Source of the DNA: Pseudomonas cichorii
GTDB taxonomy: Bacteria; Pseudomonadota; Gammaproteobacteria; Pseudomonadales; Pseudomonadaceae
DNA length: 64,000 nucleotides
Direction: 5' to 3'
Assembly (NCBI RefSeq): GCF_018343775.1
Contig: NZ_CP074349.1
Coordinates: 3,772,001-3,836,000 of the forward strand
Positions within the stretch are counted from its first letter, which is position 1. Every line of letters starts with the position of its first letter. Of the stretch, positions 1-4,971 are shown piece after piece. The notes beneath the pieces are model-generated. The model was not told the DNA's origin. It ran no database searches and saw only the letters and a list, made by a program, of their open reading frames with translations. The translations under genes were made by a program, and so were the position numbers.

Positions 1-534
1 TGCGAGCAGATGCAGCCGGATATCGCGATCCTCGATATCCGCATGCCGGTCCTGAACGGCCTGGGTGCCGCGCGTATCCTCCAGCAGCGCATGCCCCAGC
101 TCAAAGTGGTGATGTTCACCATGGACGACAGCACCGATCACCTGGAAGCCGCCATCAGTGCCGGTGCAGTGGGTTACCTGCTCAAGGACGCCAGCCGTGA
201 CGAAGTGATTGCCAGCCTGCAACGTGTCGCCCGAGGAGAAGAAGCCCTCAACAGCGCCGTCAGCGCCCGTCTGCTGCGGCGCATGACCGAACGCAACAGC
301 AGCCGAGCCATCACCACCGAAGCCCTGACGCCCCGTGAGCGCCAGGTACTCGGGCTGGTGGCCAGCGGCTTCAGCAACCGTGAGATCGGCGAGAAACTCG
401 GTATTACCGCTGGCACCGCCAAGGCACATGTGGAGAAAGTCATTGCCAAGCTCGGGGCCGCCGACCGGACCCAGGCGGCGGTGCGCGGCGTGGCTCTGGG
501 CCTGGTAAGTCAGTCTACAGGCGACTGGAGGTAA
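1..534 (+). CDS. NarL/FixJ-type response regulator, 5' end outside window
   Basis: The C-terminal 177 codons of a LuxR-family response regulator; the reading frame is open through base 1, so the true start lies upstream. The back part of the receiver domain is present: phospho-acceptor Asp in ILDIRMPVLNG (about residue 12 here) and the conserved Lys in GYLLKDA. A GerE/LuxR helix-turn-helix follows (LTPRERQVLGLVASGFSNRE through KVIAKLGAADRTQAAV, about residues 112-172). It is probably a DNA-binding output of a two-component system. The stop overlaps a GGAGGT ribosome-binding site at 527-532 that serves the next gene, so the two are co-transcribed. Residues 35 to the end are closely matched by the tail of the next gene, marking an ancient tandem duplication. 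The target genes are unknown. Confidence 0.9.
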   Translation, partial: CEQMQPDIAILDIRMPVLNGLGAARILQQRMPQLKVVMFTMDDSTDHLEAAISAGAVGYLLKDASRDEVIASLQRVARGEEALNSAVSARLLRRMTERNSSRAITTEALTPRERQVLGLVASGFSNREIGEKLGITAGTAKAHVEKVIAKLGAADRTQAAVRGVALGLVSQSTGDWR

Positions 535-536
535 CC

Positions 537-2186
537 TTGCGCAACCTCAAACCCTGGGAAGACCTGTCGCTACGCGGCAAGGCACTGGTGGCGACTTCAT
601 TGCCCCTGGTCATGCTGATGTTTTCTCTGACATTCATCTATATCGCTGAACGCCAGACCACCCAGGCCGAAGAGGATGTACGCAGGGCGCTGCTGGTTCG
701 CGGCGATATCCAGAGCGTTCACACCCAGCTCGCCGAAGCCGCTGCCAGCGTGCGCGGCTACCTGCAGACCCGTCAGGAAGACTTCCTGCCGGGCTATCTG
801 AACGCCCAGACCCAGATCGGAGCCGCGCTGGACCGACTTCACACCAACGTGCGCGACGAACAGATGCGCGAACACCTCAAGGCCATTACGCTGCTGATCG
901 AAAACAAGGTCGACGGCCTTGAAATGCTGCACAGCCTGAATCAGGAAGGAAAAGTCACGATTGCGGCCATCCTCATGGAGAACAAATTCATTCTCGATGA
1001 ACTGCGCAGCCACCTGAATACCATGCGCGAGCGTGAAGACGCCGTACTGGCGGAGCGCACGGCAGTCGCTTCCGAAAACCGGGAACGCTTGTTCTGGGCA
1101 ACGATTCTGGCCGCAGGCTCAGGCCTGCTGGGCGCCCTCCTGGCCATTTGGATACTGTGCAAAGGCATCGTGGCCCGGGTGCAACAGGTCCAAGGCAATG
1201 CACAGCGTCTGGTACAAGGCCATCCACTGCTGCCCCAGCCGCCGGAAAACGATGAAGTCGGTCAATTGGGCACTCGCCTGATGGAAGCCAGCCAATTGCT
1301 CGCCAAACGTGAACAGGCCCTGCGCGAAAACGAAGAGCACCTGCAACTGCTCACCGAGGGCGCCAAGGAATACGGGATCTTCGCTCTGGATACCAAGGGC
1401 AATGTCATCACCTGGAACACCGGGGCCGAACGCATCAAGGGCTACAGCGAGCAGGAAATCCTCGGCCAGCATTTCTCGTTGTTCTATCCGCCCGAAGAAT
1501 GTCCGCGGCATCCTGATATGGCTCTTAGCGAGGCCACCCTCAAGGGTCACTACACGGAAGAAGGCTGGCGCTGCCGCAAGGATGGCAGCCGCTTCCTGGC
1601 CAGCGTGGTCATCACGGCCCAGTACGACAGCAGCAATGCCCTGCGAGGTTTCTCGAAGATCACCCGGGACATCACTGACCGCCGTGCGGCAGAAATGGCC
1701 TTGGGCACGGCCCGTGAAGAAGTGGAACGCGCCAGCCGTGCCAAAAGCGAGTTTCTTTCCCGCATGAAAGTGATGGTTTTCAACACCGACGACGACACCG
1801 ACCACATGGACGCCGCCATCAGTGCCGGAGCGGTCGGTTATCTGCCCAGGGAAGCCTGCCGCGACGAAGTACTCGCCGGCCTGCAACCTGTGGCTTCTGG
1901 TGCCAAAACCCTCAGTAATGCACCGCTGCCTCGTCTGCCCGAAAGCAACAGCCAGCGCACCCTGATGACCGAAGCCCTGACGCCCCGTGAATGCCAGGTT
2001 CTGGGTCTGGTGGCCAGCGGCTGCAGCAACCGGGAAATCGGCGAAAAACTCGGCATCACCACGGGGACTGCCAAATCTCACGTGGAGAAGGTCATCGCCA
2101 AGCTCGGTGCCGCAGACCGGACACAGGCAGCGGTTCGTGGCCTGGCCCTGGGCCTGGTCAATCAGACATCCGGTGACTGGAGGTGA
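537..2186 (+). CDS. Chimeric membrane sensor: CHASE3-HAMP-PAS fused to receiver remnant and LuxR-type HTH
   Basis: 549 residues from a TTG start, with GGAGGT at 527-532 placed 4 bases upstream. Order: membrane segment about 14-37; CHASE3-like periplasmic domain about 40-180 (RGYL motif); second membrane segment about 183-208; HAMP; PAS about 270-395. Residues 1-410 closely match the hybrid kinase encoded next. At residue 411, where that kinase has its phospho-acceptor block SHELRTP, this protein switches to the back half of a NarL-type receiver and a complete LuxR HTH (from 481), matching the preceding gene. The HisKA and ATPase domains are absent, as are the receiver Asp and its Lys (GYLPREA instead of GYLLKDA). 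If expressed it would be a membrane-tethered one-component regulator; it could instead be a decaying fusion, but the frame is fully open. Function is inferred. Confidence 0.85.
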   Translation: MRNLKPWEDLSLRGKALVATSLPLVMLMFSLTFIYIAERQTTQAEEDVRRALLVRGDIQSVHTQLAEAAASVRGYLQTRQEDFLPGYLNAQTQIGAALDRLHTNVRDEQMREHLKAITLLIENKVDGLEMLHSLNQEGKVTIAAILMENKFILDELRSHLNTMREREDAVLAERTAVASENRERLFWATILAAGSGLLGALLAIWILCKGIVARVQQVQGNAQRLVQGHPLLPQPPENDEVGQLGTRLMEASQLLAKREQALRENEEHLQLLTEGAKEYGIFALDTKGNVITWNTGAERIKGYSEQEILGQHFSLFYPPEECPRHPDMALSEATLKGHYTEEGWRCRKDGSRFLASVVITAQYDSSNALRGFSKITRDITDRRAAEMALGTAREEVERASRAKSEFLSRMKVMVFNTDDDTDHMDAAISAGAVGYLPREACRDEVLAGLQPVASGAKTLSNAPLPRLPESNSQRTLMTEALTPRECQVLGLVASGCSNREIGEKLGITTGTAKSHVEKVIAKLGAADRTQAAVRGLALGLVNQTSGDWR

Positions 2187-2188
2187 AT

Positions 2189-4510
2189 TTGATCAACGTC
2201 ACGCGCTGGGAAGACCTCCCGCTACGCGGCAAGGCATTGGTGGCTATTTCACTGCCACTGGTGATTCTGATGCTTTCCCTGGTGCTCATCTATATCGCCG
2301 AGCGCCAGACCACACAGGCTGAAGAAGATGTGCGCAGAGTGCTGCTGGTTCAGGGCGATATCCAGAGCGTTCACACCCAACTCGCCGAAGCGGCAGCCAG
2401 TGTGCGCGGTTACCTGCTGACCCGGCGAGAGGACTTTCTGCCGGGTTACCTGAACGCCGAGGCGCAGATCGAAGCAGCGCTGGATCGACTCAATACCAAT
2501 GTGCGCGACCAACAGATGCGCGAACACCTCCAGGCCATCGCACCGCTGATCGAAACCAAGGTCGACGGACTGGAAACCCTGCGCAACCTGAGCAAAGAAG
2601 GCCAGGACACCATTTCGACCATCCTGATCGAGAACAAATACATTCTCGATGAGCTGCGCGACCGAATCCGCACCATGCGAGAACGCGAAGACACCTTGCT
2701 CGCGGAACGCACAACAGACGCCGCCGAGACACGCGCCCGTCTTCTGTGGTCGACGTTGCTGGCGGCAGGCTCGGGTGTATTTGGTGCCATCCTTGCCGTA
2801 TTGATGCTCTCCAGAGGCATCGTGGCCAGGGTGCAGCAGGTGCAAGGCAACGCCCAGCGTCTCGCCCTTGGCCACCCGCTGCTGCCACAGCCGCCGGAAA
2901 ACGATGAAGTCGGTCAACTGGGCACACGTCTGGTGGAGGCCGGTCAACTGCTGGCTGAACGCGAGCGGGCATTGCGCGAGAACGAAGAGCGCCTGCGTCT
3001 GATCATCGAAGGCGTCAAGGACTACGGGATATTCGCCCTGGATGCCAAAGGCTATGTCATCACCTGGAACGCCGGGGCCGAGCGCATCAAGGGCTATACC
3101 GAGCAGGAAATCCTCGGTCAGCACTTCTCCCTGTTCTATCTGCCGGAAGAATGCCCGCAACACCCCGACATGGCGCTGCAAGAAGCGACACTCCATGGCC
3201 GCTACATGGAAGAAGGCTGGCGCTGCCGCAAGGATGGCAGCCGTTTCTGGGCCAGCGTGGTCATCACCGCCCAATACGACAGCAGCGATGCCCTGCGCGG
3301 TTTTTCCAAGATCACCCGTGATATCACCGACCGCCGTGCTGCCGAAATCGCCCTTGGCACAGCCCGGGAAGAGGCTGAACGCGCCAGTCGCGCCAAGAGC
3401 GAGTTTCTTTCGCGCATGAGCCACGAACTTCGCACCCCCCTGAACTCCATTCTGGGCTTCGCTCAACTGCTGGACATGGATTCCAGCAATCACCAGAAAC
3501 CTCAGGTCGGCCATATCCTGCGGGCCGGCCAGCATCTGCTGACGCTGATCAACGAAGTCCTGGACATTGCCCGGATCGAGGCAGGCCATCTGTCGCTCAA
3601 CCTGGAGCCGGTGCTTTTGCCCGAGGTTCTTCAGGAAGCCTTGAGCCTGGTCTGGCCCATGGCCGCAGATGGCGGTATCCAGTTGGCCGAACTGCCGGAG
3701 CTGGCAAGCGACAGTGGTGTGATTGCCGACCGCCAGCGTCTGGTTCAGGTGCTGTTGAACCTGCTGTCCAACGCCATCAAATACAACCGCCCCAATGGGC
3801 TGGTGAGAATCGAGGTACAGCAGCAGGACGACCGGGTCACCATCAGCGTCATCGACACGGGCAAAGGCATTGCACTGGATCGACTCGATCAGTTGTTCAA
3901 ACCCTTCGAGCGTCTTGAGGCCGACTCCAGCGTGGAAGGCACAGGCCTTGGCCTGGCATTGAGCAAAAGCCTGCTGGAAACCATGAACGGCAGCATGACC
4001 GTACACAGCACGCCGGGAGAAGGCTGCCGGTTCACCCTGGAATTACCTTATGCACAAGTGCACAAGGCAGAAGAAGCGCCGATTCGCCGGATCAGCGCGA
4101 TGCCTGCCGAACCGCACCCTGCCCGCGTCGAGCATTACGGCAAAGTGCTGTGCATCGAAGACAACCTGTCGAGCATGGCACTGATCGAAACCCTGTTGCA
4201 GCGCAGGCCCGGCATTCAACTGCTGTCCAGCATGCAAGGGCAACTGGGGCTGGATCTCGCACGGCAACACGCGCCGCAATTGATTCTGCTGGATGTGAAC
4301 CTGCCAGACCTTACGGGTCGCGATGTATTGAAGCGCCTGCGACAATCCCCCAGCACAGCCAACACGCCGGTGTTGATGATCACGGCCGACGCCAGTGACA
4401 AGACCCACCGCGAGTTGCGCCAGGCCGGAGCTACGGCAATCCTGACCAAACCCATCCAGGTGCCGGCGTTCCTCGCGCACCTGGACCAATACCTACCGGA
4501 GCCTTCATGA
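2189..4510 (+). CDS. Hybrid sensor histidine kinase (CHASE3-HAMP-PAS-HisKA-HATPase-REC)
   Basis: About 773 residues. Two N-terminal membrane segments flank a CHASE3-like sensor; HAMP, then PAS (about 270-395). The HisKA H-box SHELRTPLNSILGF begins at residue 411. The ATPase N-box LLNLLSNAIKYN, G1 VIDTGKGIA and G2 GTGLGLALSKSL follow, and a C-terminal receiver (about 653-770) carries LLDVNLPD. All catalytic motifs are intact. An in-frame GTG at 2183 lies inside the ribosome-binding site, so the TTG at 2189 is preferred; it has the same spacing from the upstream stop as the TTG of the preceding paralogue. The stop overlaps the next gene's ATG (ATGA), so the receiver protein downstream is translationally coupled and a likely phosphorelay partner. 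The signal sensed is unknown. Confidence 0.9.
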   Translation: MINVTRWEDLPLRGKALVAISLPLVILMLSLVLIYIAERQTTQAEEDVRRVLLVQGDIQSVHTQLAEAAASVRGYLLTRREDFLPGYLNAEAQIEAALDRLNTNVRDQQMREHLQAIAPLIETKVDGLETLRNLSKEGQDTISTILIENKYILDELRDRIRTMREREDTLLAERTTDAAETRARLLWSTLLAAGSGVFGAILAVLMLSRGIVARVQQVQGNAQRLALGHPLLPQPPENDEVGQLGTRLVEAGQLLAERERALRENEERLRLIIEGVKDYGIFALDAKGYVITWNAGAERIKGYTEQEILGQHFSLFYLPEECPQHPDMALQEATLHGRYMEEGWRCRKDGSRFWASVVITAQYDSSDALRGFSKITRDITDRRAAEIALGTAREEAERASRAKSEFLSRMSHELRTPLNSILGFAQLLDMDSSNHQKPQVGHILRAGQHLLTLINEVLDIARIEAGHLSLNLEPVLLPEVLQEALSLVWPMAADGGIQLAELPELASDSGVIADRQRLVQVLLNLLSNAIKYNRPNGLVRIEVQQQDDRVTISVIDTGKGIALDRLDQLFKPFERLEADSSVEGTGLGLALSKSLLETMNGSMTVHSTPGEGCRFTLELPYAQVHKAEEAPIRRISAMPAEPHPARVEHYGKVLCIEDNLSSMALIETLLQRRPGIQLLSSMQGQLGLDLARQHAPQLILLDVNLPDLTGRDVLKRLRQSPSTANTPVLMITADASDKTHRELRQAGATAILTKPIQVPAFLAHLDQYLPEPS

Positions 4511-4971
4511 GCGGCGATTTCCGTATCCTGATTATCGATGACCAGCGGCCCAATCTTGAACTGATGGAGCAATTGCTCGCTCGCGAAGGCCTGACCAATG
4601 TATTGAGCAGCACCGAGCCGCTGAGAACGCTGGACCTGTTCAACAGCTTCGAGCCGGATCTGGTGATTCTCGACCTGCACATGCCGGAGTTCGACGGGTT
4701 TGCGGTGCTGGAGCAACTGAACAGGCGCATCCCGAGCAACGACTACATGCCGATCATGGTCCTGACCGCCGACGCCACTCGCGAAACCCGCCTGCGCGCC
4801 CTGGCCCTCGGCGCCCGGGACTTCATCAGCAAGCCACTGGATGCCCTGGAAACCATGCTGCGGATCTGGAACCTGCTGGAAACCCGCGCACTGTACAAAA
4901 CCTTGCGCCAGTTATTGCCGCCGGAAAAGATCGAACTGCTGCGCCAGTATCGGGCACCGGCGCAGGCTTGA
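4507..4971 (+). CDS. Stand-alone receiver-domain response regulator
   Basis: 154 residues: one receiver domain plus a short C-terminal tail without a recognisable output domain. Visible motifs are the acidic pair in ILIIDDQRPN, phospho-acceptor Asp in LVILDLHMPEFDG, Thr in VLTADA and Lys in FISKPL. It overlaps the hybrid kinase stop by 4 bases, so it is the last gene of the cluster. The tail (ETRALYKTLRQLLPPEKIEL) resembles the linker that in RpfG-like proteins leads to an HD-GYP domain, but no such domain follows. It could act as a phosphate sink or by binding a partner protein. Role inferred from context; family assignment is secure. Confidence 0.88.
   Translation: MSGDFRILIIDDQRPNLELMEQLLAREGLTNVLSSTEPLRTLDLFNSFEPDLVILDLHMPEFDGFAVLEQLNRRIPSNDYMPIMVLTADATRETRLRALALGARDFISKPLDALETMLRIWNLLETRALYKTLRQLLPPEKIELLRQYRAPAQA

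Follow-up and report, generated by a model that had tools for sequence, protein, structure and literature searches.

A predicted membrane-bound regulator formed by fusion of a sensor kinase with a neighboring response regulator in the Pseudomonas cichorii complex

A kinase-regulator chimera lies between its parental genes

The window, meaning the whole 64,000-nucleotide stretch of DNA analyzed here, comes from a Pseudomonas cichorii genome assembled as a single contig of 5.98 Mb (RefSeq assembly GCF_018343775.1, contig NZ_CP074349.1, positions 3,772,001 to 3,836,000 of the forward strand). Near its left edge lies an open reading frame (ORF) of 549 codons, uninterrupted by internal stops, that combines parts of the genes on either side of it. 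Residues 1-410 are 80.0% identical to the hybrid histidine kinase encoded downstream, and residues 411-549 are 73.4% identical to the C-terminal part of the NarL/LuxR-type response regulator encoded upstream. M410 is the last kinase-derived residue: the chimera reads EFLSRM410/K411VMVF where the hybrid kinase reads SRMSHELRTP. Both the division into 410 kinase-like and 139 regulator-like residues and the exact switch from M410 to K at the kinase H-box had been proposed in a preliminary description of the sequence, and the alignments bear them out. The features of the locus are collected in Table 1, in which the label "HAMP-like" was assigned by eye and has no Pfam match.

Table 1. Features of the chimera and its neighbors (window positions; HTH, helix-turn-helix; TM, transmembrane helix)
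Feature	Positions	Strand	Basis
NarL/LuxR-type response regulator, parent of the C-terminal part	1..534	+	full gene: Pfam Response_reg and GerE
GGAGG ribosome-binding site of the chimera, within the regulator's last codons	527..531	+	sequence reading
Chimera ORF: TM1-CHASE3-TM2-HAMP-like-PAS-coiled coil-half receiver-linker-LuxR HTH	537..2186	+	549 aa, TTG start
TM1, core residues 22-38	600..650	+	hydropathy
CHASE3, residues 45-176	669..1064	+	Pfam PF05227, E 3.6e-17
TM2, residues 185-208	1089..1160	+	hydropathy
PAS, residues 280-381	1374..1679	+	Pfam PF13426 (PAS_9), E 1.4e-12; well predicted in structure model
Coiled coil / start of kinase DHp helix, up to M410	1692..1766	+	one helix 380-410 in model
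Receiver remnant beta4-alpha4-beta5-alpha5, residues 411-453, without phospho-Asp half	1767..1895	+	alignment and model
Linker, predicted disordered, residues ~454-480	1896..1976	+	alignment and model
LuxR/GerE HTH, residues 481-549	1977..2183	+	Pfam PF00196, E 6.9e-16
Recognition helix TAKSHVEKVI of the chimera HTH	within 2067-2108	+	alignment
Hybrid histidine kinase CHASE3-PAS-HisKA-HATPase-REC, parent of the N-terminal part, intact	2189..4510	+	Pfam
Stand-alone receiver protein, last gene of the row	4507..4971	+	Pfam Response_reg, E 5.1e-25

The chimera is thus predicted to carry membrane spans and a DNA-binding domain in one polypeptide without a phospho-acceptor. Its GerE match scores 58.1 bits against a cut-off of 23.5, and its best 19-residue hydropathy (2.27) is the highest among the 22 GerE proteins above the Pfam cut-off in the genome; the remaining 21 reach at most 1.64, a borderline value, with one of them covered over only 564 of 959 residues. 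No Pfam match to HisKA, HATPase_c or Response_reg was found at E<=0.001 in the window chimera, which therefore has neither the domains of a sensor histidine kinase nor a complete NarL/LuxR receiver. The preliminary description had stated that the phospho-accepting His, the ATPase, the receiver Asp and the receiver Lys were all lost while the HTH was intact. This is correct for the window copy, in which the receiver Lys is replaced (LLKD to LPRE), but the Lys is retained in the two other copies described below (PKD in P. capsici, LLKD in P. cichorii MAFF 302096); the Asp half is missing from all three. Likewise, the LuxR DNA-binding domain is present as described, but it was not joined as a bare HTH, since about half a receiver (residues 411-453) was kept with it. 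The view of the gene as a fusion stands: its product is predicted to place a NarL-type HTH on a membrane sensor, with the phosphorelay chemistry gone. In a structure model of the monomer (mean predicted local distance difference test score, pLDDT, 67.9; predicted template modeling score 0.31), residues 411-453 form strand-helix-strand-helix at low confidence and residues 451-479 have pLDDT <50.

Three lineages retain a fusion of probable single origin

The same fusion, with the same junction at the same locus, is present and intact in P. capsici Pc19-1 and P. cichorii MAFF 302096, so that the search in related genomes suggested in the preliminary description yielded three sound lineages and not the lone decayed copy it had warned of. 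All three chimeras share a four-residue linker deletion relative to the regulator, as well as three HTH changes (R-to-C, F-to-C and A-to-S) that are absent from five aligned regulators of the P. cichorii complex. The common junction, deletion and HTH changes indicate that the fusion was most likely a single event within the complex, with the parental regulator-kinase pair left intact alongside. In phylogenetic trees the chimeras form one clade placed inside the kinases of the complex (support 100/100 on protein, 99/99 on DNA); only the DNA tree puts the kinase of MAFF 302096 nearest to them (82/90), a tentative placement. Of 13 outgroup loci tried for these trees, 8 passed the motif filter for the N-terminal part and 3 for the C-terminal part, and the others were dropped.

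Traces of how the fusion may have formed are still visible. The hexamer CGCATG occurs in frame in both kinase and regulator at the fusion point (it now reads CGCTTG in the Pc19-1 chimera), and the chimera tracks the kinase up to this hexamer and the regulator from three codons after it. The spacing from GGAGG to the TTG start is 5 nt in the chimera and identical in the hybrid kinase (GGAGG 2179-2183, TTG 2189), and the chimera stop lies 2 bases ahead of the kinase TTG. Both GGAGG motifs lie in the tail of the preceding HTH gene, as would be expected if a regulator-plus-kinase unit had been copied in tandem.

The N-terminal parts of the window and P. capsici copies differ at 7.3% of bases, and the corresponding kinases at 7.6%. 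Because these divergences are similar, the chimera has probably been inherited vertically since the two split. For MAFF 302096, the chimera is 86.7% identical in bases to the kinase of its own strain versus 82.8 and 83.1% to the other chimeras, and some gene conversion or a different history may apply to this strain. The closest genome seen, here called G018, lacks the chimera. Its kinase N-terminal part is 96.1% identical to that of the window, compared with 92.4% for P. capsici. Since G018 is closer to the window than P. capsici yet has no chimera, loss is the simplest reading, and the chimera was probably lost in this sister genome. The G018 regulator ends in TGA and continues into the kinase start just as the window chimera does, a join that fits recombination between two HTH tails without proving it. 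In P. cichorii ICMP 3353, which also lacks the chimera, either loss or earlier branching would account for the absence.

Sensor and HTH are under selection while the joint drifts

Selection was measured as the ratio of nonsynonymous to synonymous substitution rates (dN/dS, omega) with a two-omega codon model on one topology, in which the MAFF 302096 kinase is sister of the chimeras. On the chimera branches omega was 0.175 for the N-terminal part (410 codons), 0.42 for the receiver remnant plus linker (72 codons) and 0.069 for the HTH (71 codons), against 0.047, 0.062 and 0.022 on the parent branches. All three chimera values differ from omega=1 (twice the log-likelihood difference, 2dlnL, 203.5, 10.6 and 56.7, respectively), and within the sensor the chimera-branch omega was 0.20 for TM1 plus CHASE3 and 0.12 for PAS plus coil. 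The HTH rate was not significantly higher than the regulator's own (2dlnL 3.57). A chimera-only, three-taxon estimate that is independent of this topology gave 0.136 for the sensor, 0.41 for remnant plus linker and 0.029 for the HTH, with parent controls of 0.057, 0.035 and 0.025 under the same model. For the window-P. capsici pair alone, the values were 0.093, 0.349 and 0.122. If the ORF were neutral, the divergence between the window and P. capsici copies, set at 0.66 neutral changes per codon, would be expected to bring 8.0 stops on average, and none of 2000 simulations was stop-free. As judged from these comparisons, the chimera copies are under purifying selection, far from the neutral dN/dS that the preliminary description had allowed for. 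A constrained sensor and HTH separated by a drifting joint is the pattern expected if both must work in one protein.

The A-to-S change lies in the recognition helix TAKSHVEKVI and aligns with V189 of NarL, a DNA-contacting residue. Among 46 distinct regulator sequences from the fetched loci (see below), 45 have A here and one has T, whereas the site of the R-to-C change (residue 486) carries R in 46 of 46. The A-to-S change may thus have shifted the DNA specificity of the chimera. Separately, Cys 486 (1992-1994) and Cys 496 (2022-2024) of the HTH are common to the three chimeras and absent from the five complex regulators, and the second position is Cys in 4 of the 46 fetched regulators; a redox role for this pair is conceivable, as a candidate only.

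The fusion is confined to the P. cichorii complex in the collections searched

Scans of genus, class and phylum genomes scored the best 3-4 candidates per genome. Matches at E<=1e-40 were found in 67 of 298 genus genomes, with a full-length chimera in the window genome (G000) only. From the same larger group, 398 genus genomes gave 3 matches at E<=1e-205, and 2 of these had the chimera, namely G000 and G391; the G391 locus is 100% identical to that of MAFF 302096 over 4629 bases and hence adds no further case. Eight of 57 relatives had a match and one had the chimera. At E<=1e-50, the window genome was the only match among 369 class genomes and the only chimera-bearing genome among 10 matches in 398 phylum genomes. 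Within 92 fetched loci (L017-L108), a single ORF matched both halves in four: L058, L059 (Pc19-1), and L102 and L103 (both from G391), L102 being identical to L058. Recurrent independent fusion was sought in all of these genome sets and in the 92 loci and, at these thresholds and with this scoring, was not found. Nor was an unreduced intermediate with two regulators and two kinases seen, more than two matches occurring only in G000 among the 298 genus genomes and 57 relatives, under the same best-candidate scoring and without inspection of individual loci. In a plasmid collection only 3 records matched, each over a short stretch (1-5% of the query).

Protein searches reach only proteins sharing short exact words with the query. 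With the full-length query, for which scoring covered the 7996 candidates with the most words in common, the top three were P0001 (524 aa, cluster of 12), P0002 (549 aa, cluster of 13) and P0003 (545 aa, cluster of 1), and these were the only proteins with both CHASE3 and GerE among the best 120 of 1729 matches. P0001 is the window's own protein modeled from M26, which would drop TM1; P0002 and P0003 start at the site corresponding to TTG, and, leaving the start aside, 6 residues distinguish P0002 from the Pc19-1 copy. With residues 411-549 as query, 8 proteins of similar length matched at E<=1e-8, of which only P0001, P0002 and P0003 have CHASE3; another, P0124, combines PAS with GAF and GerE. 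No further CHASE3-PAS-GerE protein was found among ~5.8 billion proteins with this C-terminal query, within the reach of such a word-based search. One other protein, P0121 (310 aa, on a contig of 2847 bases), carries a stretch with 95% identity over 53% of the chimera C-terminal part, joined to a lyase domain (PF00206), perhaps as an assembly chimera on a short contig.

The surrounding gene row

The chimera belongs to a plus-strand row that runs from a HisKA_3/HATPase_c kinase (L016:4685-5869) through the NarL/LuxR regulator, the chimera and the hybrid kinase to the stand-alone receiver. The first kinase also has a GAF match slightly below the Pfam cut-off. The regulator has 222 aa and is cut by the window edge, its start lying 135 bases before the window; the hybrid kinase has 773 aa from the TTG at 2189, or 775 aa if an earlier GTG is used. 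The stop of the HisKA_3 kinase overlaps the regulator ATG (ATGA), and for this reason the HisKA_3 kinase, rather than the hybrid kinase, may be the regulator's principal partner. A palindrome, TGCCCGCGCGGGCA, lies 27 bases 5' of this first gene (L016:4644-4657) and is kept in 4 of 4 aligned strains; it is a possible binding site for a regulator. Beside the row but outside the window are two tandem small genes on the minus strand, at ~3769236-3769781 and 3769968-3770522 of contig G000:C1 (L016:3236-3781 and 3968-4522), with 167 of 174 residues identical and, by eye, signal-peptide-like starts. The pair is a second recent tandem duplication at the chimera locus.

Proposed function and alternative explanations

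The reading that we favor, and that these sequence comparisons make moderately probable, is that a duplication followed by a deletion produced a phosphorylation-independent, membrane-tethered transcription regulator predicted to act on sites overlapping those of the parental regulator. First the regulator-kinase pair would have been duplicated in tandem; an in-frame deletion would then have removed the DNA between the H-box start of one kinase and a point halfway through the receiver of the following regulator, and the result would be a membrane protein with a CHASE3-HAMP-PAS-coiled-coil sensor carrying the regulator HTH. With the kinase core and the receiver Asp half gone, phosphotransfer through the chimera is not expected. 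The kinase-derived sensor and coiled coil would keep the protein dimeric and determine how its two HTHs are placed relative to each other; tethered by ~27 flexible linker residues, these HTHs would bind sites that overlap with the parental regulator's own. No longer held in check by a receiver, the chimera would respond to a CHASE3/PAS signal by competing with the parental pathway or pre-loading it. The sequences show how the fusion is built, its most likely single origin, its retention in three lineages and the selection on sensor and HTH; the order of duplication and deletion, membrane insertion, the dimer, DNA binding, the target sites and the sign of regulation are what we infer here. A further-reaching version, possible but rather doubtful, is that regulator, chimera and hybrid kinase form a three-part cassette in which one type of sensor feeds both a phosphotransfer output and a direct DNA output on the same or shifted sites, with mixed kinase-chimera dimers coupling the two. 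If this is true, the locus would present a two-component system that was recently turned into a one-component regulator and kept by selection, with ancestor and derivative adjacent.

Several observations weigh against a regulator of this kind. On the omega scale the N-terminal part evolves ~3.7 times faster in the chimera than in its parent (0.175 versus 0.047, 2dlnL 47.3), the receiver remnant is nearly free to drift, and the HTH (0.122) is no tighter than the sensor (0.093) when only the window and P. capsici copies are compared. The absence from G018 and ICMP 3353 means that the chimera is dispensable. Linker and remnant are modeled with low confidence, and a monomer model is uninformative on dimers. 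Finally, for the only described relative found, Rsp of Neisseria gonorrhoeae, one paper has it repress pilA (PMC10269533) and another reports no apparent role in pilE transcription (PMC6528607).

The strongest alternative, although an unlikely one, is that the chimera acts chiefly through its sensor half, forming mixed dimers with the hybrid kinase that dampen it in a dominant-negative manner, the HTH being a passenger or of minor importance. The whole CHASE3-HAMP-PAS-coiled-coil is indeed kept at 80% identity to the kinase, the chimera stop is close to the kinase start, and the HTH and sensor values of the window-P. capsici pair are alike; however, an HTH carried along as a passenger would be expected to be as loosely constrained as the remnant (0.41), whereas in the three-taxon estimate it is the most constrained part (0.029), at a rate not significantly above the regulator's. 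Clearly less probable is a soluble remnant-HTH fragment that competes with the regulator, arising either by proteolysis, to which the predicted disordered linker would be accessible, or from an internal start at codon 410. The window and MAFF 302096 copies have ATG at this codon but the Pc19-1 copy has TTG, and selection acts on the sensor part as well (0.136). A decaying, functionless relic of the tandem duplication, already disfavored, has a very small chance of being correct: it would accommodate the two genomes without the chimera, the faster evolution than in the parents and the small in-frame deletions in linker and remnant, but not omega <1 in all three parts, zero stops against 8 expected and three intact lineages. 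An assembly or sequencing artefact of the direct repeats flanking the ORF, a concern of the preliminary description, is refuted by the identical junction in the separate records of two named strains and in database protein P0002; the repeats, at 76-79% identity, and the one-contig window genome also speak against it.

Relation to known systems

The preliminary description knew of no system of this form, a claim that does not hold. A survey of transmembrane transcription regulators includes Rsp, a natural chimera of the PilS sensor and the PilR DNA-binding domain, and proposes a possible origin of membrane-bound transcription regulators in two-component systems (PMC10269533). As in Rsp, the N-terminal part of our chimera comes from a membrane kinase and its C-terminal DNA-binding part from a regulator of the same locus. 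The likeness is one of architecture only, and the chimera is unlike Rsp in its NarL/LuxR HTH, its CHASE3-PAS sensor, its adjacent intact parental pair and the selection measured on it. Carrick et al. 2000 is reportedly the original Rsp paper.

Other systems share the logic to varying degrees. Regulators of the ToxR/CadC type also put the sensor, the transmembrane segment and the DNA-binding domain on a single polypeptide that lacks a phospho-acceptor (PMC5936718). Their winged HTH is N-terminal and their sensor periplasmic and C-terminal, with a single span, whereas the chimera has the reverse order, spans the membrane twice, and carries its PAS in the cytoplasm and its LuxR HTH at the C-terminus. 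Hybrid transmembrane transcription regulators of the Bacteroides type, according to the survey, join a membrane sensor to a DNA-binding domain and are thought to be derived from two-component systems (PMC10269533); they retain Response_reg, HisKA or HATPase_c, in contrast to the chimera, with its receiver remnant only. The chimera HTH is matched by EL222 (chain 8a5r) and by chain 3p7n, whose database entry names a sensor histidine kinase. In EL222, a PAS-family (LOV) sensor acts directly on a LuxR-type HTH without phosphorylation; EL222 is soluble, lacks CHASE3 and membrane spans, and carries its HTH on a different linker. No described CHASE3-PAS-LuxR membrane regulator was found in the open-access papers searched, CHASE3 and LuxR in PMC8175716 concerning other proteins. 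The form is therefore already known through Rsp, and what is new is the NarL/LuxR and CHASE3-PAS version, the retained parents and the measured selection.

The locus is a recent case in which the parents, the fusion and fusion-free sister lineages are all extant. It lets the steps of conversion be dissected, namely the loss of the kinase core, of half the receiver and of linker residues, and the changes in the recognition helix. The pattern of selection, with sensor and HTH kept while the joint drifts, is quantitative evidence that the product of such a fusion can be worth keeping.
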